The notes under the pieces are model-generated. The model was not told where the DNA came from, did not search any database, and saw nothing but the letters and a program-made list of their open reading frames with translations. A program made the position numbers and the translations under genes. Positions 26,897 through 37,387 of a stretch of 64,000 nucleotides of DNA are shown piece after piece (positions within the stretch are counted from its first letter, which is position 1; each line of letters begins with the position of its first letter). This DNA comes from Candidatus Methanoperedens sp. GTDB lineage: Archaea > Halobacteriota > Methanosarcinia > Methanosarcinales > Methanoperedenaceae. The DNA is taken from contig VEPM01000021.1 in NCBI GenBank assembly GCA_012026795.1, forward strand, positions 1 through 64,000, in the 5' to 3' direction.

Positions 26897-27925
26897 ATGG
26901 AAATACCGCCATTACTTAAACCATTAATAACACTGGGCATCAGTCTGGTAATAGCTGCTGCAATAAGTGTTATAATAAAGATCCTTCAAAAAAGAGCCGA
27001 AAAGACAAATACAAAACTTGATGATATTATTCTTCATGCAATCGGGAGACCGCTTTACATACTTGTTATTGTTGCAGGCATTTATTATGCCATCCACCAG
27101 ACCCCCTATCTGGCAGGCCTGATAAATAGATATGACCAGGGTTACATGTACAGGCGCTTTATTATCACTATTTTTATAACATGGATAGCTGCATCTCTGG
27201 CAAAGAGGATCATTAAAGAGTATGGCTATGATATTGCAGCGAAGACCCAGGGAGACATGGATGACAGGCTCGTGGCCCTTGCAGATATGTCAGTAACTTA
27301 CATTATCTGGCTGTTTGGTATTATGACCGCCCTGTTGAATATCGGATATAATATAACAGCGTTCATCACAGGTATGGGAATCCTGGGTCTGGCCATCGCG
27401 CTTGCAGCCCAGAACCTGCTTTCAAACGTATTCGGGGGCGTCACCATCACCCTTGACCAGCTTTATAAAGTCGGGGACAGGGTGGAAATGGGCGGGGTCT
27501 ATGGGGATGTCTACGAAATAAAACCCAGATATACCAATATAAAAACACTTAATAATACCATTATCACAATTCCCAACTCCAAAGTAATCAATGAGCAGAT
27601 AATTAATTATGCAGTCCCTGATGCCTCGGTAAGGGTAAAGATACCTGTCAGCGTTGCATATGGTACTGATCCAAAACAGGTGGAGAAAATCCTTCTTGAA
27701 ATTGCAGGTAAAACACCACTTATCCTGAAAGAACCTGAGGCTTCTGTCCGCTTTACTGAATATGCTTCGTCGTCCCAGAACTTCGAATTGATTGTATGGG
27801 TAAGACATTATGATGACAGGCATCCCATTATTGACCGGGTTTTCAGGGAGATTTTCATTCGCTTTAAAAATGAAGGGATTGAGATGCCATTTAACCAGAT
27901 GGATGTGCATATAAAGAAAGACTAA
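26897..27925 (+). CDS. mscS: Small-conductance mechanosensitive channel (MscS family)
   Basis: A 342-residue protein: four N-terminal membrane segments, the pore helix with Gly/Ala repeats (GMGILGLAIALAAQNLLSNVFGG) and a C-terminal MscS beta and alpha/beta domain (KVGDRVEMGGVYGDVYEI, TIITIPNSKVI). It opens under membrane tension and releases solutes on osmotic downshock. The start is a lone ATG with a TATA-like sequence about 25 nt upstream. It is divergent from the FKBP operon. Confidence 0.92.
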   Translation: MEIPPLLKPLITLGISLVIAAAISVIIKILQKRAEKTNTKLDDIILHAIGRPLYILVIVAGIYYAIHQTPYLAGLINRYDQGYMYRRFIITIFITWIAASLAKRIIKEYGYDIAAKTQGDMDDRLVALADMSVTYIIWLFGIMTALLNIGYNITAFITGMGILGLAIALAAQNLLSNVFGGVTITLDQLYKVGDRVEMGGVYGDVYEIKPRYTNIKTLNNTIITIPNSKVINEQIINYAVPDASVRVKIPVSVAYGTDPKQVEKILLEIAGKTPLILKEPEASVRFTEYASSSQNFELIVWVRHYDDRHPIIDRVFREIFIRFKNEGIEMPFNQMDVHIKKD

Positions 27926-28157
27926 TCTTGAATATCCTATACAGGCTGATTGTTCCTGAGGGCCTCTTTCAACGGCATTGACAGTTATACTGCATACAGA
28001 CCTCTTCAATACGTAAAATCCGTTCTTGTGTCATATTTATGCCTGGTTTCCCATATTCATAAGTATAAGCTAAAAAACCATCTTAAGAACAAAACAATAA
28101 GATTACCAGCCGGAGCTAAATTTATCCGGGTGAAGTTTATAAGATGCTGTACTGCTT

Positions 28158-28316
28158 TTATCTCGCCCTGCTTTTTTCGCTGCTTACATCTATATATGCA
28201 TCTATATATGCCCAGCCAGTATATTCTCCGGATTTCCGTTCGAAAGCGAATTTATTAGAGTCTTTCCTCTTTTGATCTTCCGAAGTATGCGGCGATCCTG
28301 CTACATATTGTGCCAT
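28158..28316 (-). CDS. 52-residue hydrophilic small protein
   Basis: A 52-codon frame with a GTGAGGAGAA ribosome site 4-10 nt before the ATG. The product starts MAQYVAGSPHTSEDQKRKD and has a charged N-terminal part and a YIDAYIDVSSE middle. It is embedded in a long gap with no other gene. The ribosome site and the codon pattern support it, but no family is known to me. Confidence 0.45.
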   Translation of the reverse strand: MAQYVAGSPHTSEDQKRKDSNKFAFERKSGEYTGWAYIDAYIDVSSEKSRAR

Positions 28317-28722
28317 ACATTTCTCCTCACTCATTTAAGCGATTTCTATCGCTATGATACATTTCTGTACACAATAATTCTTAGAATTTACTCATATATA
28401 TAACCTGGGTGGAGAAAGAGCCCATCCAATAGATCCGATCTAACGAGTGGAGCATAAATGAGCCGCAGAGGCACTGAGAGCTTGTCTGGAAATTTTACCA
28501 GCAGTTGGTTTACACACCGATTCGATGCACATAATTGGTTATGAGTGAGTATTCAGATGCGTTCCTGGACAGGATTACAGGATTTACAGGATGGAAATTA
28601 ATCCTGTCCATCCTGTAAATCCTGTCCAAAATAAATATTCAGACAAGCTCTGAGGTATAGAGACGCCAATGAGGATCAATTACCGATGATTATAATATAT
28701 ATAAATTACTATAGGTACCTAT
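28317..28722. other. Intergenic gap with an inverted repeat
   Basis: About 400 bases without a supported gene. It contains the palindromic repeat at 28566-28628 (listed separately), a small inverted repeat near 28340 (AGCGATTTCTATCGCT) and a TATA-rich stretch (28689-28706) that is the probable promoter of the RelBE pair. Confidence 0.55.
28566..28628. repeat. Palindromic CCTGTAAATCCTGTCC-type dispersed repeat
   Basis: The right arm (28601-28628) consists of the stacked units ATCCTGTCC and ATCCTGTAA; the left arm (28566-28594) is its inverse with an 8-nt extra unit (TACAGGAT). The whole can fold into a long hairpin. Repeats of this very type are scattered in many bacterial and archaeal genomes; copy number here is not testable. 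Confidence 0.65.
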
Positions 28723-28959
28723 ATGACGGCTACCACAACGATATGTATAGATCCACGGGTAAAGGATAAACTTACCTCTCTGAAATCTCATCCGCGCGAA
28801 TCGTATAATTCCATTATAGAAAGATTGACAAACCTGGCAATAGATGAAGAACCCCTCAGCGATGAGGCGATAAAGGGAATCGAAGAAGCCCTCGAAGATA
28901 TAAAACACGGGCGCCTGCATTCCGAAGAAGAGATCATGAAAGATTTTGACCTGAAATGA
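28723..28959 (+). CDS. relB: RelB-like antitoxin (ribbon-helix-helix)
   Basis: A 78-residue protein. The N-terminal MTATTTICIDPRVKDKLTSLK and the following helix are a ribbon-helix-helix DNA-binding fold; the acidic C-terminal helix (EEPLSDEAIKGIEEALEDI) would clamp the toxin. Its stop overlaps the toxin start by 4 nt. A strong TATA stretch lies about 20-30 nt upstream and is the likely operator. Confidence 0.83.
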   Translation: MTATTTICIDPRVKDKLTSLKSHPRESYNSIIERLTNLAIDEEPLSDEAIKGIEEALEDIKHGRLHSEEEIMKDFDLK

Positions 28960-29222
28960 GTTACAGGGTCGAATATACTTCAAAAGCAAGAAAAGATCTC
29001 AAAAAATTACCTCTGGATATCGCACAGAGCATAATCCGATCAATCAACAGAATAAAAGATGACCCTTATCCTCATGTAAAAAAGATCAAAGGGGCGCAAA
29101 AGAACCCTTTATATACTCACCGCATTGGTGAATATCGGGCTATCCTTTACATAGGAAATGAGCATTTGCTGGTCCTGGTGATAGAAGCAGGTCACAGGAA
29201 AAAGATCTACCGGAAACACTGA
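28956..29222 (+). CDS. relE: RelE/ParE-family mRNA interferase toxin
   Basis: An 88-residue protein with the RelE fold: YRVEYTSKARKDLKKLP at the start, IKGAQKNPLYTHRIGEYRAILYIGNEHLLVLVIEAGHRKKIYRK at the end. Conserved Arg/Lys residues of the ribosome-dependent RNase site are present (R in RIGEYR, R and K in HRKKIYRK). It is coupled to the antitoxin by ATGA. The pair looks intact and opens the accessory region. Confidence 0.87.
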   Translation: MSYRVEYTSKARKDLKKLPLDIAQSIIRSINRIKDDPYPHVKKIKGAQKNPLYTHRIGEYRAILYIGNEHLLVLVIEAGHRKKIYRKH

Positions 29223-29287
29223 GAACATGAAGGCATGTTGCAATATTCTTCCGTGGAATCATACGCTACAGAATCAACAAAGAATGT

Positions 29288-29773
29288 TTGTTACGTTTTG
29301 GTGGACAATCATTTTTAAATTCTGTCAGCCCAATTCTTATTCCTCTCCCTTTAGCGGAAGTAATTCTAAATGGCATTAATAATAACTTGGATATTGATGA
29401 TTTTTACAAAAATCAAGAATGTAGGATCTTGATCGATGAAAAATCCATATGTTATAATTTCGAACGACTTATATTTATTAAAAATACTGCAAAAAATATG
29501 GATAAAATCTAATATAAAGAACGAATAAGTACCACTAACTCAGCATGTTATAAAGTCAGCTTTCCCTCAGAACTCCCCTCAAAATTTCTCCAAAAAAGAC
29601 ATAAACGTCTTTTATCTATATTGAAATTATATATTGATAATATGACTGAGAAAAAAATTAATAAGGATTCCAAAGAAAAAAAGTGTAGAGCACTTACTGA
29701 TGAAGATATTAATCTTTTAGATGCCAGTATGAACTATAACGACAAGTTGCTTAAACGACTTGCTCAGATGTAG
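29288..29773 (+). pseudogene. Gene remnants with repeated KNMDK-stop segment
   Basis: Two short frames in one reading frame: one up to a TAA at 29510-29512 (ending KNTAKNMDKI) and then an open frame to 29773 with a possible ATG at 29642 (MTEKKINKDSKEKKC..., 43 residues). The segment from about 29475 to 29580 resembles the segments at 32510-32610 and 36890-36945, including the stop after MDK(I/T). I take it as decayed coding sequence or a dispersed repeat. No family is recognised. Confidence 0.4.
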
Positions 29774-29969
29774 TGCTGGTATTTCTTTTTAACCATTTTA
29801 TAATTTAAGAATCCCTTGCTCTCCTCCATATCTCTTAATAATTTTATAATGAATCTCGATAATCTTTTGTGTATTTAATGAATCCATTCAAAGATATAGA
29901 TTCTTTTGTAAAGTTATAGGTTTTTGGGATAATAGAAATTTCGCTTTTTCCTTATTGCAGGAGTCCCTA

Positions 29970-30300
29970 TAATCCATGACTTACCCGATTCCGCCTGCAG
30001 GCGGTCAAGTATTCCCGCAGGGCAAACCCTGGGCGCATAGCATTTGCGGGCGCAGGGGACAGATTTCTTTTTGCATGAACGAAAGGGCGGTATTAGTTTT
30101 TCGAATCCTCTTTAGGGAAAGGGACAGCGTGAGATATCACATAAACCGCGAATGTCCGGGCATCCGGCACAGGACTGTCGCCCAACACCGTCCTCGCAGG
30201 GATTCGGCAAGCAGAACCGTTGGCGGCGCGCCGGGTGGTGGGCGCCCCGTTCCCCGTCTTGACTCATATACAATAATTGACCGTCAGGGTGGGGAGATGG
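29970..30300. other. GC-rich block of foreign composition, no supported gene
   Basis: This block is far richer in G and C than the surroundings. A 111-codon frame (29976-30311) runs through it but its product is Arg/Pro/Gly-rich with no domain. Small palindromes such as CCGCCTGCAGGCGG (29990-30003) and several G/C runs suggest structured RNA or acquired DNA. It lies between the decayed genes and the GHKL/STAS/PIN cassette. Confidence 0.4.
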
Positions 30301-30447
30301 ATTTTTGTTAGATTAGTGATAAAAAAAATACTTCTAAATTTGTGTAATTTAAATCGATAGGTTCATAAAAAGCAATAAACCAAAAACTATTTTATCTAAG
30401 TCAGAGTAATGCAGCCACATTCATTTTGTTTTACGGAGTTTATATTT

Positions 30448-31320
30448 ATGCGCATATCAGCAGGTAAGGGAGAACTTATAAGTAATTACAGTGGATTTCA
30501 GCGAATTATAAATCTCCACAAGCAAATAAAAACAATAAATTCCGGAGATGAGTTAATAGTAGAAATGCCCCATTGGTTTGATGCAAACATGTGTGCTCCT
30601 TTTGGGGCGATTTTATCATTTATAAAAAATAAAAATATTATTACTCTTAATGTTACAGATTCGGTTATGGAAATCTTGCAGAAAAACAAATTTTTTGACA
30701 AAGTTGGTTTTATTACCCCTCCTAAACTAGATAATTATAAATCTACTATTGAATATTTCCAATTTGATGTAAATGAGGATAATGCGTTCAAAAAATATGT
30801 TGAAACTCATTTTGGGAATAATAAACATGGAATTCCGAGAATGAGTAAAGAGCTCCTCAGAAAATTCAGAGAAAGTCTATACGAAATATTTGGAAACTCG
30901 GTCCTTCATTCAGAAACGGATTACATATTTGCATGTGGTCAACATTTTCCTTCCCAAAAACGTCTTGATTTTTCAATTGTTGATTTAGGCATTGGATTTC
31001 ATGGAAATATAAATAAAATAATGAATTTAGATTTATCGCCTGAAGAGGCTATAGTTTGGGCAATGGAAGAAAATAAGACAACTAAAAGGGGTGGCGTTCC
31101 AGGTGGATTGGGATTAAAATTGATAAAGGAATTCATTGAAAAAAACAAAGGAAAAATGCAAATTGTAACCTACAACGGGTATTGGGAATTTTCGAATGGA
31201 AAAACAAATTTAAAAAAATTTGTTTCTGATTTTCCGGGGACTGCAGTGAATATAGAAATAAACACGGCAGATTCTACCTTTTATTATCTTGAGTCTGAAA
31301 ATTATGAAAACATATTTTAA
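30448..31320 (+). CDS. GHKL-type ATP-binding protein (anti-sigma/kinase-like)
   Basis: Start at ATG 30448 with GGAG 10 nt upstream; the frame opens 13 codons earlier. The 290-residue product has an unfamiliar N-terminal half (about 1-135) and a GHKL ATPase domain (about 140-285) with N box ESLYEIFGNSVLHS, G1 VDLGIGF and G2 GGLGLKLIKEF. No His-phosphorylation domain is present. It belongs with free-standing ATPases that pair with STAS-like proteins, by analogy with RsbW/SpoIIAB. The next two genes encode a STAS-like protein and a PIN nuclease, so this may be the switch kinase of a three-part system. Confidence 0.75.
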   Translation: MRISAGKGELISNYSGFQRIINLHKQIKTINSGDELIVEMPHWFDANMCAPFGAILSFIKNKNIITLNVTDSVMEILQKNKFFDKVGFITPPKLDNYKSTIEYFQFDVNEDNAFKKYVETHFGNNKHGIPRMSKELLRKFRESLYEIFGNSVLHSETDYIFACGQHFPSQKRLDFSIVDLGIGFHGNINKIMNLDLSPEEAIVWAMEENKTTKRGGVPGGLGLKLIKEFIEKNKGKMQIVTYNGYWEFSNGKTNLKKFVSDFPGTAVNIEINTADSTFYYLESENYENIF

Positions 31321-31343
31321 TTAATGAGACGTATAGGTGTATA

Positions 31344-31706
31344 ATGAATAATATAGTAAAAATTAATGTAGTTGAAATAGTAGGGGATAGAATCTGTGTT
31401 ACTGATAAAGATGGGAAAAAAGTATATGATGTTATTTTTGATGCCCTTTCCAATAAAAAGGAAATCATACTTTCATTCGATGGTGTTACGGATTTAACAT
31501 CAGCATTTTTGAATAATGCCATTGGTCAACTTTACGGTAATTTTAAGGAAGATTATATCAAATCAAAACTATCCGTTACTGATATGCCTAAAAATGACAT
31601 GGTCATTTTAAAGAGAGTAGTTGATCGAGCAAAAAGTTTTTTTGAAGATCCAAAACACTTCATAAAAGTTGCTGATGCTGCTCTTGGTGATGACAGTGGT
31701 AACTAA
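31344..31706 (+). CDS. STAS-like (DUF4325) protein
   Basis: A 120-residue protein with the DUF4325/STAS-like fold: an alternating strand-helix pattern with KEIILSFDGVTDLTSAFLNNAIGQLYG, where the Ser/Thr cluster matches the place of the phosphorylation site in anti-anti-sigma STAS proteins. It starts 23 nt after the ATPase stop with TAGGTG upstream. In known families such proteins are often found next to GHKL ATPases. The end overlaps the PIN gene by 17 nt, a sign of one operon. Confidence 0.78.
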   Translation: MNNIVKINVVEIVGDRICVTDKDGKKVYDVIFDALSNKKEIILSFDGVTDLTSAFLNNAIGQLYGNFKEDYIKSKLSVTDMPKNDMVILKRVVDRAKSFFEDPKHFIKVADAALGDDSGN

Positions 31707-32271
31707 AATTACGCACATAAACGATTATTCTCCGAATGTTGGAGATAGGTTATTTTTTGATGCTAATATTTGGTTGGCCATATATGGTCCATCACCTGCA
31801 CATTGGACCCAAACACCATGCTCTTCTCTGTTTTATAAATTAATCAAAAACAACATTGATATTTACACAAACAGCCTAATAATTTCGGAAGTAGTCAATT
31901 CTTGGGCACGTCTTGAATTTAATCAGCAAAGAACAGTGCTTAATTTTAAAACAAATGAATTTAAAAAGTTTAGAGAAACTCCTGAATATCTGAATGTTGC
32001 GGAAGAAATATCAATTAACATAGAAAAAATACTAAGATGGTCAAAACGATTTGATTCCGGTTTAGAATCAATTGATATGGAAATCATAAATTCTAAATAT
32101 AAATCCGGAACTTATGACTTTAATGATCTCATATTCAGAGAAATCTGTAAGGCCAATAATTTCATTCTTGTCACTAATGATAGGGATTTCTGTACAACTG
32201 ATGTAAATATTCTTACGGCTAACAGCAATATGTTAACGATGCTTAGGATGTCTAACAATAGATGTCCGTGA
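31690..32271 (+). CDS. PIN-domain nuclease of the GHKL/STAS cassette
   Basis: Start at ATG 31690 preceded by GGTG; a start at 31669 is also possible. The 193-residue product has a PIN fold: RLFFDANIWLAIYG (first Asp), LIISEVVNSWAR (Glu), DFNDLIFREICKA and FILVTNDRDFC (late Asps). It is longer than VapC because of a helical insert (about 70-120). There is no VapB-like gene next to it; instead it overlaps the STAS-like gene, so it may be controlled by that protein and the ATPase. It is probably an RNase, though the target is unknown. Confidence 0.72.
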   Translation: MTVVTKITHINDYSPNVGDRLFFDANIWLAIYGPSPAHWTQTPCSSLFYKLIKNNIDIYTNSLIISEVVNSWARLEFNQQRTVLNFKTNEFKKFRETPEYLNVAEEISINIEKILRWSKRFDSGLESIDMEIINSKYKSGTYDFNDLIFREICKANNFILVTNDRDFCTTDVNILTANSNMLTMLRMSNNRCP

Positions 32272-32373
32272 TATTTATATGGTTATAATGTGCCGGTTTT
32301 CAGTTCAAGACGATGCACAAAATGAGTATGGATACAGTCACAAACCTTGGACTTATAGCTTGTTTTTAGACCT

Positions 32374-32564
32374 CCCAACATTATTTGAAACGATATCCAA
32401 AATTTCTTCTTTTATTAAGAAAGTATGGTTAGTTTCATAATGTTAATTATCAATATACCTAACATGACCAATGAAAAATCCTCTATAAGTGCTGAATTAA
32501 AACTAATTACACCTATTAAAATAATGTCAAAAAATATGGATAAAACATAATATTAAGAAAGATT
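32374..32564 (+). repeat. Direct repeat copy 1 (about 190 bp)
   Basis: This stretch and 36753-36944 are alike over about 190 bp (about 85% identical by eye), including a perfect 31-nt core that starts with AGTTTCATAATG. Both are in the same orientation and flank the P-loop ATPase gene and the IS element. Each contains an ORF of 36 codons ending in KNMDK(T/I) and TAA. Confidence 0.7.
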
Positions 32565-32972
32565 AAGAACTACTAACCCAGTATTTCACAGCGTCAGTTT
32601 TCACTCAGAACCTCTGGTTCGAATTTACTATCTTATGGAATACGTGCGGTCTATATTTTCTTTTGATAAAACAGAAATTTCTGAGGATGTTAATCGAATA
32701 ATTGATTTGGTCCATAAACAAATGCGGGACCAGGATAAAATATCTAAATGGATAAGAAGATTTGATCTCAGTTTGGAGGATATTGTAAAAAAACATCTAT
32801 AGCTACTGGTATTAAGGAAGAAATTATTTACTGTCTAAAAGATGTTGATATTCTTGAGATCTGTTGGGAAATCAGGAATTTAAAGAAATCATTACTGAAT
32901 AAAGGTATTATCGAATCTATAACTGACGATATTGGAATTAAAAAGCGTGGAAAGTATAAGATTTCGCCCTAG
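32551..32972 (+). pseudogene. Decayed coding sequence with a frameshift
   Basis: The frame following the stop after MDKT can be read as ERLRTTNPVFHSVSF..., then an ATG at 32635 opens 55 codons ending HL (stop 32800-32802). Coding-like sequence then continues in another frame (EEIIYCLKDVDILEI..., to the stop 32970-32972). Together this looks like one gene broken by a stop and a frameshift. The first 20 codons parallel the remnant at 29513. No family is recognised. Confidence 0.4.
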
Positions 32973-33209
32973 TTTAAACCCATATTCCGTACCCTTTTTA
33001 GGAAGTGAAAAATAATTTTACTGCGCTTGGTTTTAAAATTTAACCGCGTATATTTTTTATACAAAATGCGGAAAATGGGCATATTTTCGCATTTAACGAT
33101 TAATATTTTAATTGAGTATATTTAAAATAATAATTTTAAATCGAGATGCAAAGACAATAGACTTAAATTAAAATTTCTAAGAGTTAAGGGTACGGAATGT
33201 GGGTTTAAA
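32973..33209. mobile_element. MITE-like element with 24-bp terminal inverted repeats
   Basis: Bases 32973-32996 and 33186-33209 are inverted repeats of 24 nt with one mismatch, starting TTTAAACCC. The 189 bp between is AT-rich and has no ORF. Both ends carry TTTAAA, which could be part of the repeat or a palindromic target-site duplication. Size and structure fit a non-autonomous insertion element; no transposase with matching ends is in the window. Confidence 0.65.
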
Positions 33210-33349
33210 GATATGCTTAATACCTATAAACCAGAGGGATATGAGTTATTCTTGCCCGGGGTTATACCCAATATTCAAAGCATGAACCGAGGAGACCATG
33301 ATGAAAAATAATAATCCTGTATGAAATTATTCGAGGAGAACAATAGTTA

Positions 33350-33457
33350 ATGAATGTGAAGTTTTATCTGTTTTTTACCGATCAGAGCATCAATATGGAT
33401 GGTCATAGCCTTGGCATTACCATCGGTTTGTACGATAAATATAATGGTATTTATTAA
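33350..33457 (+). CDS. Possible 35-residue peptide
   Basis: A short frame with CGAGGAGAA upstream of ATG 33350 (MNVKFYLFFTDQSINMDG...). An earlier copy of the same CGAGGAG sequence precedes an 8-codon ORF (MMKNNNPV) at 33299. The twin ribosome sites could mark the leftover of deleted genes. No family is known to me. Confidence 0.3.
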   Translation: MNVKFYLFFTDQSINMDGHSLGITIGLYDKYNGIY

Positions 33458-33475
33458 TAAATTCTCTTACAATTT

Positions 33476-35053
33476 TTAATTATTAACAGTTGGGTCATAA
33501 ATCATAGATTTTCTACGTAATTCTTCAATTGATGACTGTAGCCAAAAATCGATCATTTTAAAACCGCGTATTTTACGAGCCCCTGTATATTGACTAACAT
33601 CTAACATATATGCTTCATATATTTTTCCAGGACAAGCGCTTACAGTTACACGCGATTTGACTTTATGGATTAATCGTAAATCTACAAGTTCATGAATATG
33701 TTTAATGTTTTCTGTTTTTTCATCTATATCCAATAAGAACAAGTTAGCCTTTGCTTGATTAATGCAGAAATTACGTATTTTTTGCCATTCACTTTCGAGT
33801 TTTACTTGGTCTTCAAGAGTATCTCTTTTGAATTCTTCTTTTTTAGTTGATTCATACTTTCCTACTGCAACGTTCACATCTTCCGCTCCAATTTTTTCGC
33901 CTCTATGATTTCTTCCTCGTTCACGTGCCACGTCGATAGATTTTCTGAAGACACCTAAGAAATCTCTGGCAACTCCTCCGCTTGCCAGAACGAGTCGATC
34001 AACTGCTCCTTCACTTAAGATTTGGTCTATTGAGATTTTTCCACTTTCAATTAAAAAACCATTTAATATTTTAACGAGAAATTGCTTTGTTTGAGAATAG
34101 CTTTCCAATGTTAAATCAAGATCAATTTCGTCCGCATCATCTCCTATTTTGACTCCTACTGGAGGATCACTATGGATATACCACAGAGATCTATGACGTA
34201 TTGTCCCAACTTTGAGCCATAGGTTATTTCCCTTGGCAATCCTGTGAAAGTAGTCTATAACATTTGCTTGGTCATTTCGACGTATATGATAAAGATCATC
34301 CAAAAAAATGTAAGAATCACCACTACTGAGTTCAGAAATTTGATGGAAAAGATTCTGATATTCTTTGATGTTTCTAAGAAGAAAATCAAATTTTTTCCTG
34401 TGAAAAGCTTCTTTTACTTCTTCACTTGCTGTTTCTTTCTCACTACCAGCAGATTTACCCTCTAAAGCAAATCCTTTGTTATCAGTACCTGCTTTAAGTT
34501 CATTTTCCTTAAATTTTTCTTTATCTAATTTAACTGTTTTTTCGGTTTCAATTTCATCGGCTGAATGAAGCAGTTCTTTAAGTTTTTTAATCTGTTCATC
34601 AAGGGATACTGAAATCTCTTTAGCCTTTTTCTTATCCATACCTGAACGATTTTTTTTATTTCTAAAAATCTTTTGACAAATCTTTTCAACAAAAGAAAAT
34701 TTTTTATCATCAGATAATGCAAGTTCATTGAGCACAATTTCAAACTTCGTTAATGATTCTATTAATACACTTATTAGAACATCTGGAAAACTATGTCCTT
34801 TGTATGTTTCAAGATCAATGTAAGCAATCGGGCGTCGGTCTTTCTTAAGGTCACTAACTGCTTTTCTTAAAAGACTTGATTTGCCCGAACCTCTTCGTCC
34901 AAAAACTATTTGGTGTTGCTTGCTTTTTGCTCTATTAAGAGTTCCTTTGGCTGGCTCAACAAATCTTTTTATACCTTCTTCTGTTGAGCGTATAGCTTCC
35001 TCGATAATGGTTGAGAGTTTTTCGATTTCAGGGGAATCTAATATTTCATTCAT
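33476..35053 (-). CDS. Large P-loop ATPase of unknown function
   Basis: A 525-residue protein. Walker A is in VFGRRGSGKSSLLRKA, Walker B is YIFLDDLYHI and a likely arginine-finger or sensor region is VGTIRHRSLW. Between Walker A and B there is a highly charged Lys/Glu insert (about 125-225). The C-terminal part looks like a winged-helix region (SRVTVSACPGKIYEAYML). This resembles Orc/Cdc6- or STAND-like AAA ATPases. It lies in an accessory region next to a transposase, so phage defence or plasmid maintenance are possible roles, not shown. Its promoter side is bordered by the IS element. Confidence 0.65.
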   Translation of the reverse strand: MNEILDSPEIEKLSTIIEEAIRSTEEGIKRFVEPAKGTLNRAKSKQHQIVFGRRGSGKSSLLRKAVSDLKKDRRPIAYIDLETYKGHSFPDVLISVLIESLTKFEIVLNELALSDDKKFSFVEKICQKIFRNKKNRSGMDKKKAKEISVSLDEQIKKLKELLHSADEIETEKTVKLDKEKFKENELKAGTDNKGFALEGKSAGSEKETASEEVKEAFHRKKFDFLLRNIKEYQNLFHQISELSSGDSYIFLDDLYHIRRNDQANVIDYFHRIAKGNNLWLKVGTIRHRSLWYIHSDPPVGVKIGDDADEIDLDLTLESYSQTKQFLVKILNGFLIESGKISIDQILSEGAVDRLVLASGGVARDFLGVFRKSIDVARERGRNHRGEKIGAEDVNVAVGKYESTKKEEFKRDTLEDQVKLESEWQKIRNFCINQAKANLFLLDIDEKTENIKHIHELVDLRLIHKVKSRVTVSACPGKIYEAYMLDVSQYTGARKIRGFKMIDFWLQSSIEELRRKSMIYDPTVNN

Positions 35054-35103
35054 AATATTGTCTCTTAAGTTGTAAAATTCTCTTAATATCGAACCTTTAA
35101 TTA

Positions 35104-36556
35104 GCTTGACTTTGTCAGATTACCTCCCTCTTTTATGGTGAGATAATTTTGCTGAGTCCCGTGCTTTATGTTTTTTCTTGATCAATTTTAAGATTTCTTT
35201 ATCCGTCACCTTTCTTTTAGGCATAATAACTTCAAAAATCTCCCTCACATCCCTAATAGTAAGTAGTGGTGCTTTCAATTCCCATTTGTCCTGCATCTCA
35301 AGAAGAAACAGCATTGCCATAAAAACCATAGCCACATGATGATTCCAGCCAATATAACCTCTGACTTCATAATCTGCTAAACCTACCTCTCCTTTAGCAT
35401 CCTCAATGGCACGCTCAATCCAGTAACGGCTGCAAGACATTTTTCCAATTCTCTCAATGCTTGTATCGATCGAAGCATTTGAGAACTGGTATTTTGTCTC
35501 AGTTTCCCCCTCATTACTTCGAATAACAAGCCAGCACTCCTCACCCGGCAATTTATCCGTGACTGGAAAAACCCTCAGATATGCAAGCTTGCACCACATT
35601 TCTTTTCGTTCAGAATTCCTAAGATATACCCTTTGCCACTGTGAAGGGTCTAATTCGTTTGCTAACTTATCTACTCGTATCGGGTTACTATCATTATTAA
35701 GAACCTTTTCGATTGTTGGATTCCGTCCTCGGATTCCATTTTGGGGTACTCCAACATCAGGTCTGTTCAACCATACTCTTGTATCACAGGGTATGTCAGC
35801 AATATAAACAATCCTCTCTTTTTCAAGTTCAGCAAGAAACCATGGTTGTTGCCCGTAAAAAGAATCCATCCCAATCCAACCAAAAGGGATGTCTCGTCTT
35901 TTGGCATCAAGTATCATTTCCAGCCCAAGCTCAGCTTTGGTTTTAAAAACCAGATCATCCGGGATGCCGCATTTCTTTCTGCGTTCGATATCATCTACCC
36001 ACTCCTGAGGAATGTAAAGACGTTTATCCATTAATATCCTCTTGTTATTGTTTACATAACCCAGGAAAACTCCTACCTGGCAGTTTTCTATTTTTCCCAG
36101 TCGTCCACAGTATTGCCTTTGCACTCCTGCTGAACTATCGCCTTGTTTTGGAAATCCTGACTCGTCTAACTGAAGAGAGCCATTTTCTTTGTCACCGATC
36201 AGTTCAACCAAACGGTCCTGAATGTCGTGTATGAGACCATTTTCGTCCCATAACGAATCTGATATAAAGTGCTGGAGTGATTGATTATTGCAGTTCGGAA
36301 CAGTCTTTGCTATTTCTGTCATAGTCCCCCTTTTTTGTACGGTCAAGCAGCCATAGAGATATTTCTTGGATTGCTCAATAACTTTGCGTGTTCTGGTCTT
36401 AAAACGTTCTATGAAATAGTTATGGTAGATCTTTAATTCGATCCTTGCCTGTATTATGTCCTCTCTTATAAGTTTGAAAAATATCTTAATATGTACTCCC
36501 CATATTTAAGAGGGCAATCAAAATATAATAGAGTGGCTAATGTGACAATGTCAAGT
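35104..36556 (-). mobile_element. IS701-like insertion sequence
   Basis: Terminal inverted repeats of about 21-22 bp are at 35104-35124 (GCTTGACTTTGTCAGATTACC) and 36535-36556 (inverse of ACTTGACATTGTCACATTAGCC), with about four mismatches. The 1.45-kb unit holds one transposase gene on the minus strand. I could not identify a clear target-site duplication at its ends. Element size fits IS701. Confidence 0.75.
35120..36490 (-). CDS. IS701-family DDE transposase
   Basis: The product has the IS701-family layout, beginning FIERFKTRTRKVIEQSKKYLYG, then GTMTEIAKTVPNCNNQSLQHFISD, the first catalytic Asp in LQLDESGFPKQG, the second in IGMDSFYG, and the Glu in IERAIEDAKGE. No ATG or GTG is in frame for 48 codons before the TTG at 36346, yet the conserved N-terminus lies there. 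The codon ATT at 36488-36490 is preceded by GGGGAG, so I extend to it (456 residues); a decayed start is the alternative. Intact otherwise. It is next to the start of the P-loop ATPase gene. Confidence 0.8.
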   Translation of the reverse strand: MKIFFKLIREDIIQARIELKIYHNYFIERFKTRTRKVIEQSKKYLYGCLTVQKRGTMTEIAKTVPNCNNQSLQHFISDSLWDENGLIHDIQDRLVELIGDKENGSLQLDESGFPKQGDSSAGVQRQYCGRLGKIENCQVGVFLGYVNNNKRILMDKRLYIPQEWVDDIERRKKCGIPDDLVFKTKAELGLEMILDAKRRDIPFGWIGMDSFYGQQPWFLAELEKERIVYIADIPCDTRVWLNRPDVGVPQNGIRGRNPTIEKVLNNDSNPIRVDKLANELDPSQWQRVYLRNSERKEMWCKLAYLRVFPVTDKLPGEECWLVIRSNEGETETKYQFSNASIDTSIERIGKMSCSRYWIERAIEDAKGEVGLADYEVRGYIGWNHHVAMVFMAMLFLLEMQDKWELKAPLLTIRDVREIFEVIMPKRKVTDKEILKLIKKKHKARDSAKLSHHKRGR

Positions 36557-36946
36557 TAGTATTAAAGCTATTTTAATCTTTCATACATAATGTTTCTTTA
36601 GTTTCACTATACTTCTCCGAGCATGAAATCCCGATCTCCTTCAGTCACTAAACCCCATATTGAAGATAACTACCAACAAATGCAATGAAAGTTTATGCGA
36701 AATATAGCGTGTTTTAGGTCAACCATAAAATGTGTTGCACTTTGGCCTAACTACCAACATGATTTGAAACGGTCTCCAAAATTTTTTCTTTGATCAAGAA
36801 AGTAGGATTAGTTTCATAATGTTAATTATCAATATACCTAAGATGGCCAATAAAAAATTCTCTACAAGTGTTGAATTAGACCTAATTACACCTATTAAAA
36901 AAACGACAAAAAATATGGACAAAATCTAACATCAAGAAAGATTGAA
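36557..36946. other. Gap between IS and membrane protein, with direct repeat copy 2
   Basis: About 390 bases between the IS and the next gene. The right half is direct repeat copy 2 (36753-36944), which ends just before the ATG at 36947. The left half (36557-36750) has no gene that I can support. Confidence 0.55.
36753..36944 (+). repeat. Direct repeat copy 2 (about 190 bp)
   Basis: The partner of 32374-32564 in the same orientation. Its 36-codon ORF (36819-36929) ends in KNMDKI and TAA. The last bases run up to the start of the next membrane protein gene, so this copy may supply its promoter and 5' region. Confidence 0.7.
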
Positions 36947-37387
36947 ATGTATCTAACACGAAAATCGATACTCACAGCAGGGTGCGCAATCGTATTAACA
37001 TCAGGACTGGCAATTCTTCTTGTTCTTCTAACCGCTTTCCCAATATCCTATTTTTCAATTCCTGTTCAAAAACTTACTCTGCTCTTGATTTTTATAATTT
37101 CATTAATTGTTGCAATACCTCTCATATTTAAAAAATTAAACCGTCTTCCCAACGAGAAAAAGATACTCGGCTGGACCTTTATGGGACTCGGTGCTGAATT
37201 CATCTTATTTCCGTTCATGCTTTTGATCTATATTTTCAATTTTTCATCGGTATTTAGCATAATTATCGGAGGAACAATTATAATGATTTCTTTAATATTC
37301 GGGTTATCTGTCGGCTTAATAAGTATTGTAATAGGAATGTTACTGGTCAGGAGAAAATATAGAGATTTAAATCCTGAGAAAAGATAA
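36947..37387 (+). CDS. Four-helix membrane protein of unknown function
   Basis: A 146-residue, very hydrophobic protein with four predicted membrane helices (about 8-32, 42-60, 75-96, 103-132) and a basic tail (RRKYRDLNPEKR). No motif is recognised. It starts at the edge of direct repeat copy 2 and is followed 8 nt later by a thioredoxin-like gene, so they may share an operon. Confidence 0.6.
   Translation: MYLTRKSILTAGCAIVLTSGLAILLVLLTAFPISYFSIPVQKLTLLLIFIISLIVAIPLIFKKLNRLPNEKKILGWTFMGLGAEFILFPFMLLIYIFNFSSVFSIIIGGTIIMISLIFGLSVGLISIVIGMLLVRRKYRDLNPEKR

Follow-up and report, generated by a model that had tools for sequence, protein, structure and literature searches.

Organization of the locus

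The window, by which is meant the whole stretch of 64,000 nucleotides that was analysed, carries three reading frames at 30448-32271, all on the + strand and in the order vapK-vapS-vapC, which were found to be intact in an ORF and translation check (Table 1). The first-pass annotation had described three adjacent genes, of which the second and third share 17 nt, and this arrangement was confirmed; the overlap (31690-31706) has this length if vapC starts at the ATG of 31690, the GTG of 31696 being a possible alternative. The naming of the second protein as DUF4325/STAS-like and of the third as a PIN protein also held, given that Pfam assigns DUF4325 to VapS (E 1.1e-16), with no other domain in its 120 aa, and PIN to VapC (E 2e-7), both matches passing the cut-off.

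Table 1. Features of the vapKSC locus and its surroundings, in window coordinates
Feature	Coordinates	Strand	Details
Accessory segment with vapKSC	27922..36930		about 9 kb; comparison with same-genus genomes
Toxin-antitoxin candidate pair	28723-29222		DUF7557/VapB-like and ParE-like genes
vapK	30448..31320	+	290 aa; predicted STAS-like domain (about 1-95) and SpoIIAB-like GHKL kinase domain (97-275), no HTH
vapS	31344..31706	+	putative DUF4325 STAS antitoxin; phosphoacceptor position S53; C-terminal segment present
vapC	31690..32271	+	193 aa; putative PIN nuclease toxin; acids D24, E67, D146, D164, D166
P-loop ATPase gene	33476-35053		weak matches to Sll1717 family and defence models mad8 and DS41_1
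DDE_5-type transposase (IS element), inside the accessory segment	35120..36346	-	PF13546, E 5.2e-50
Direct repeats around vapKSC and the IS block	29444-29573, 32372-32611, 36751-36943		193 nt at 87%, 130 nt at 74%

The first protein had been called a free-standing GHKL ATPase, a description of which the GHKL part stood. Pfam alone makes no such call for VapK (HATPase_c at E 0.032, below the cut-off) and PADLOC gives a weak match, while in an AlphaFold model built with 36 aligned relatives (pLDDT 91) residues 97-271 superpose on SpoIIAB with a Z of 10.2 (rmsd 3.0, 130 aligned). The protein as modelled holds a SpoIIAB-like GHKL kinase fold, and would presumably act as a kinase. In addition, the residues E146, N150 and H154 (N-box), D179, G181, G220 and G222 are invariant in all 88 full VapK proteins, and the window protein has every one of them.

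The protein is not free-standing in the sense intended, given that its approximately 95 N-terminal residues appear to form a further domain. When the first 105 residues were modelled separately (pLDDT 75), the six best structural rows all belonged to STAS proteins or to transporters with a STAS domain (Z 5.6-6.8). The matches, whose Z falls from 6.8 to 5.2, begin with the C-terminal part of SLC26 transporters, which is their STAS domain, and continue through RsbS and a Thermotoga homologue to RsbV and SpoIIAA; a MutS2 chain is also among them. Foldseek, run on this part alone, returned no match at E 0.001, and its profile comparison with VapS gave a probability of 17.8%, which is too low to use. 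As the Z values are middling, “STAS-like” is the proper strength of wording, and the model is suggestive of such a domain. VapK begins directly in this part, which leaves no space for an HTH.

Position 43, which lies in this region, is aromatic in 86 of the 88 proteins (W in 76, F in nine, Y in one) and is W43 in the window; this residue may be the counterpart of Escherichia VapK F54 and of CapK W68. In a Desulfobacterales contig (L093:45-2885), VapK is fused behind a P-loop AAA-type NTPase in a protein of 946 aa, which may represent a different sensor feeding the same kinase.

Relationship to the bacterial vapKSC system

The profile searches of the PDB, which used VapS and VapC alignments headed by the window proteins, each returned a single match at E 0.01, i.e., the VapS (E 2.3e-27) and VapC (E 2.9e-21) chains of entry 9Z7O. 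This structure belongs to the vapKSC system of Escherichia sp. E4736, described by Chambers et al. (EMBO J, June 2026; PMC13373217), whose text records 289 instances in “diverse bacterial groups”, and it presents VapSC as a 2:2 complex in which S48 of VapS is buried in the interface (PMC13373217; PDB 9Z7O). In the 9Z7O alignment, window S53 stands opposite this S48, and window VapC D24 aligns with Escherichia D28, the numbering agreeing with the protein lengths given in PMC13373217. Among the VapC relatives, D24 is found in 98/98 and E67 in 97/98, D146 and D164 in 95/95 of the proteins reaching that far, and D166 in 93/93; all five acids are present in the window.

According to the same paper, the toxicity of Escherichia VapC disappears when D28 is mutated, and VapC is neutralised by VapS, which loses this capacity when its C-terminus is deleted, and which neither binds nor restrains VapC when it carries the phosphomimic S48E (PMC13373217). 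The operon provides approximately 2-log protection against one coliphage, Bas42, and this protection is abolished by VapC D28A, VapS S48A or VapK F54A (PMC13373217). The phosphorylation of VapS by VapK and the activation by ssDNA were both inferred in that study, in part from the sister pair CapK-CapS, because VapK was insoluble and could not be purified (PMC13373217).

The existence of this sister pair raises the alternative of a CapKS-type system at the window, in which the PIN gene would merely be a target regulated by a STAS protein that binds DNA as a repressor, given that the kinase/STAS logic and the position in the operon are as in capKS (PMC13373217). However, the window VapS, with its 120 aa, has no winged helix, VapK has no N-terminal HTH, and the direct homology runs to VapS-VapC, which makes this alternative highly improbable.

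Genomic setting of the window copy

The operon lies in an accessory segment, which is absent from one genome of the same genus (G394), where window position 27921 meets 36931 (in L206), and the place of which is filled, in a second such genome (G368), by other genes, of polysaccharide type as named by sequence inspection. One of the direct repeats that surround vapKSC and the IS block has a counterpart at the corresponding position in another genome of the genus, and pieces of the segment flanks are found repeatedly across the genus. Given the missing segment in the one genome, the other genes in the second, the repeats and the transposase, the operon seems to have come only recently to a variable spot.

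VapS is present in 1/34 genomes of the window's own family, and the nearest relative of the operon is found in a GoM-Arc1 archaeal MAG, with 77% identity in VapK, 80% in VapS and 81% in VapC, followed by a genome of the Methanosarcina family (G308), with 61, 68 and 67%, respectively; the three copies form a fully supported clade in the VapS tree. The rarity of VapS in the family, together with the abundance of repeats and the IS in the segment, might suggest that the module is decayed or silent in this host, a functionless passenger of a mobile segment. This is unlikely, given that the three frames are intact, that every catalytic residue has been kept, and that 77-81% identity is maintained with the copy in another archaeon.

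A location typical of defence islands had also been proposed, of which the mobile setting was recovered, i.e., the accessory segment, the repeats and the IS transposase. The label “defence island” itself is not supported, as none of the eight neighbouring window proteins matched PADLOC at E 0.001 and the P-loop ATPase of the segment has weak matches. A second candidate toxin-antitoxin system, of ordinary type, is formed in the same segment by a DUF7557/VapB-like and a ParE-like gene. No Rfam family was found in window 27500-37000.

Distribution of the three genes

A scan with the VapS alignment of one genome per species, covering 84,980 species, yielded 327 relatives, and the gene content of the best 80 of these 327 loci was established by iterated profiles across all frames. 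The three genes occur together in 71 of these 80 genome loci, which were picked by VapS similarity alone, so that their association is not due to chance, and the co-occurrence of the three families, suggested earlier as a check, is not unique to the window. The refuting conditions set in the first-pass annotation do not hold. Several of the nine genome loci without the full triad are clipped by contig ends (L054, L064, L097 and L107). The 71 complete loci belong to 19 named phyla, with three loci unassigned, and include four archaeal loci. In most loci an overlap of the VapS and VapC frames is possible, the overlap lengths being an upper bound because the earliest possible start was used. An intact VapK is present in another frame at L095, and there is a VapK remnant beside IS elements at L044 and a remnant only at L107, both of which were classed as broken.

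The full triad was also found in 10/11 viral loci, and VapK relatives in 3/50,697 phage records. Scans of viral contigs yielded no close relatives with VapS alone, and no match with the Escherichia VapS. In plasmids, relatives of VapS occur in 1/72,556 records, whichever of three queries is used, so that plasmids are not the usual carriers. In the Streptococcus phage Javan172, the repressor and the integrase flank the trio, whose PIN gene (L040:7218-7748) is unannotated as such. In a 143-kb viral contig, a BCS1-like AAA ATPase carries a fused VapS-type DUF4325 domain (L129:3634-5271), the phosphoacceptor position of which is occupied by Met; neither VapK nor VapC was found within the 10 kb examined.

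Presence of the kinase and identity of the phosphoacceptor

The residue at position 53 of VapS was tabulated for 134 distinct loci, with the exclusion of 18 repeat records and three very weak VapS rows (L168, L182 and L183). Where VapK is present (91 loci), the position is S in 78, T in 12 and H in one, that is, Ser/Thr in 90/91; where VapK is absent despite sufficient room (38 loci), it is P in 30, A in four, M in one and S in three, that is, other than Ser/Thr in 35/38. At three more loci, which end too early upstream, the residue is A, A and P, and it is S at both loci with a broken VapK. The surrounding motif is otherwise unchanged, passing from LTSAFLN to LTPAFLN or LTAAFLN, and solo VapS genes in other lineages also have no Ser, as in the Poribacteria, where Ala is found. 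The exception among the loci with VapK, with His at 53, is that of a Marinitoga phage (L041), where no PIN gene was found.

None of the 120 VapS columns is as informative about the presence of the kinase as column 53, which has 0.72 bits against 0.55 for the next (128 loci, uncorrected for kinship) and still ranks first when the Pro loci are left out, with 0.218 against 0.186 (99 loci, eight of them kinase-less, likewise uncorrected for kinship). In the VapS tree, computed without column 53 and with one partial second copy (L173) omitted, the kinase state changes seven times and the Ser state seven times. Three independent pairs were available on well-supported branches, with a mean of 2.5 concordant and none opposite; the sign test was not significant, and with so few independent kinase losses it cannot reach 0.05.

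There are also counter-examples, in that the kinase-less archaeal loci L167, L179 and L181 retain Ser53. Two of these, L179 (3186-4904) and L181 (3870-4752), come from one genus in another family of the class and combine Ser and VapC with no adjacent VapK, which is encoded elsewhere in the L179 genome and was not found in that of L181 (79% complete), and L167 is a solitary VapS with Ser in a genome that is 65% complete. The VapS proteins of L179 and L181 are N-terminally extended, and in L179 a DUF2299 gene occupies the position of VapK.

These loci bear on a second alternative, i.e., that the window encodes an ordinary two-part VapSC, beside which the GHKL protein would work separately, as a conformational ATPase or a sensor, and would not phosphorylate VapS, since three kinase-less loci keep the Ser and the VapSC of Methanosarcina stands without VapK. 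However, the loss of VapK coincides with the loss of exactly the phosphoacceptor, VapK shows a SpoIIAB-like kinase fold and motifs in its model, and the S48A exchange ended phage protection in Escherichia (PMC13373217), so that a two-part system is distinctly unlikely. As judged from these sequences, the kinase and its acceptor site both seem to have disappeared in related archaea, and this joint loss provides evolutionary support, as an independent clue, for the published mechanism, in which VapK acts on VapS.

VapSC pairs without a kinase in Methanosarcina

Genomes of the Methanosarcina type hold VapS and VapC without VapK, with Pro at the acceptor position, and VapK was found nowhere in 22 genomes with the Pro-type VapSC (E 1e-15; 30 genomes were searched altogether). 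VapC is present at 32 of the 38 kinase-less loci, where D24 and E67 are kept in 31/32 and D146 and D164 in 30/32, the remaining acid positions being gaps and one other residue, and the inhibitory C-terminus of VapS is retained in Methanosarcina.

A gene for a LigD 3'-phosphoesterase (PF13298, E 2.2e-42 in one member) lies directly upstream on the same strand, at a distance of 51-419 nt, in 34/34 Methanosarcina-type records (28 distinct loci), a count to which locus L171 does not belong, and a rubrerythrin-like gene is found in 32/34 records. The VapC of these loci (L023:5767-5960 and similar loci) is extended at its N-terminus, often by a stretch with many basic residues, and this extension is not seen in the window VapC, L021 or L027.

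Taken jointly, these observations favour, with modest confidence, the reading that vapKSC can shed its kinase and that the Methanosarcina pair is a fixed chromosomal, kinase-independent and perhaps DNA-repair-linked kind of toxin-antitoxin system. The antitoxin of such a pair would not be switchable by phosphorylation, because its acceptor Ser is a Pro. Two genomes (G231 and G300) each hold a Ser-type vapKSC as well as a Pro-type VapSC, so the Pro may insulate the latter from the resident kinase.

Proposed mechanism and significance

The window locus is interpreted, with a probability of roughly 0.87, as a vapKSC operon, that is, as a three-part toxin-antitoxin or abortive-response module carried by an archaeon that belongs to the Methanosarcina order, the functions of its products being predicted from their sequences. 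At rest, VapS would sit on VapC, with the C-terminal helix of VapS blocking the nuclease. The activation of VapK, which in the bacterial relative is probably due to ssDNA from damage or phage attack, held between the STAS-like and GHKL domains, would lead to the phosphorylation of VapS at Ser53, after which VapS would be released, and VapC would cut RNA and bring growth to a stop. For this archaeon, the kinase activity of VapK, its trigger, the RNase activity of VapC and the protection of the cell are proposed by analogy. The first-pass annotation had envisaged a GHKL/STAS switch gating the PIN nuclease in a kinase-controlled toxin or defence module, and this idea is supported by the sequence relationship with vapKSC and by the intact key residues.

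A partner-switch of the type that controls sigma factors in bacteria would govern a nuclease in an archaeon, as part of a module that spans 19 named phyla and also occurs in temperate phages. The kinase-less relatives represent a natural experiment, in which the kinase is gone, the presumably phosphorylated residue is usually gone as well, and the rest of the motif stays. Because of this co-loss, the inferred step of the published mechanism can be put to the test with simple swaps, using archaea that are culturable and genetically tractable, and the kinase-less branch is the part most worth following.

Comparison with known systems

The vapKSC system itself is already known, and what is new here are its archaeal members and the kinase-less VapSC pairs of Methanosarcina with a Pro acceptor. 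No prior report of an archaeal vapKSC or of a kinase-less VapSC was found in the open-licence PMC literature, and in the text of PMC13373217 the word “archaea” belongs to the reference list only, in the 12 of its 14 places seen, an archaeal entry in Dataset EV3 being possible. The window operon resembles that of Escherichia sp. E4736 in its K-S-C order, in its kinase with a STAS-like and a GHKL part and no HTH, in its DUF4325 antitoxin with a phosphoacceptor Ser, and in its PIN toxin with the same acids (PMC13373217). It differs in its archaeal host and in the Trp of VapK, as against the reported Phe54, if the two positions are indeed equivalent.

The capK-capS pair likewise has a STAS and GHKL kinase, the target of which is a conserved Ser in a STAS partner, whereas CapK has an HTH and CapS, which has a winged helix, is a promoter repressor with no PIN partner (PMC13373217). 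The SpoIIAB-SpoIIAA and RsbW-RsbV pairs share with the window the GHKL kinase fold (Z 10.2) and the logic of phosphorylation, but the target in the window would be a nuclease rather than a sigma factor, and the kinase appears to bear a STAS-like domain of its own. Finally, VapBC systems also combine a VapC toxin of the PIN type with an overlapping partner gene, although the antitoxin proposed here would be a kinase-controlled STAS protein (DUF4325) and not a DNA-binding VapB.
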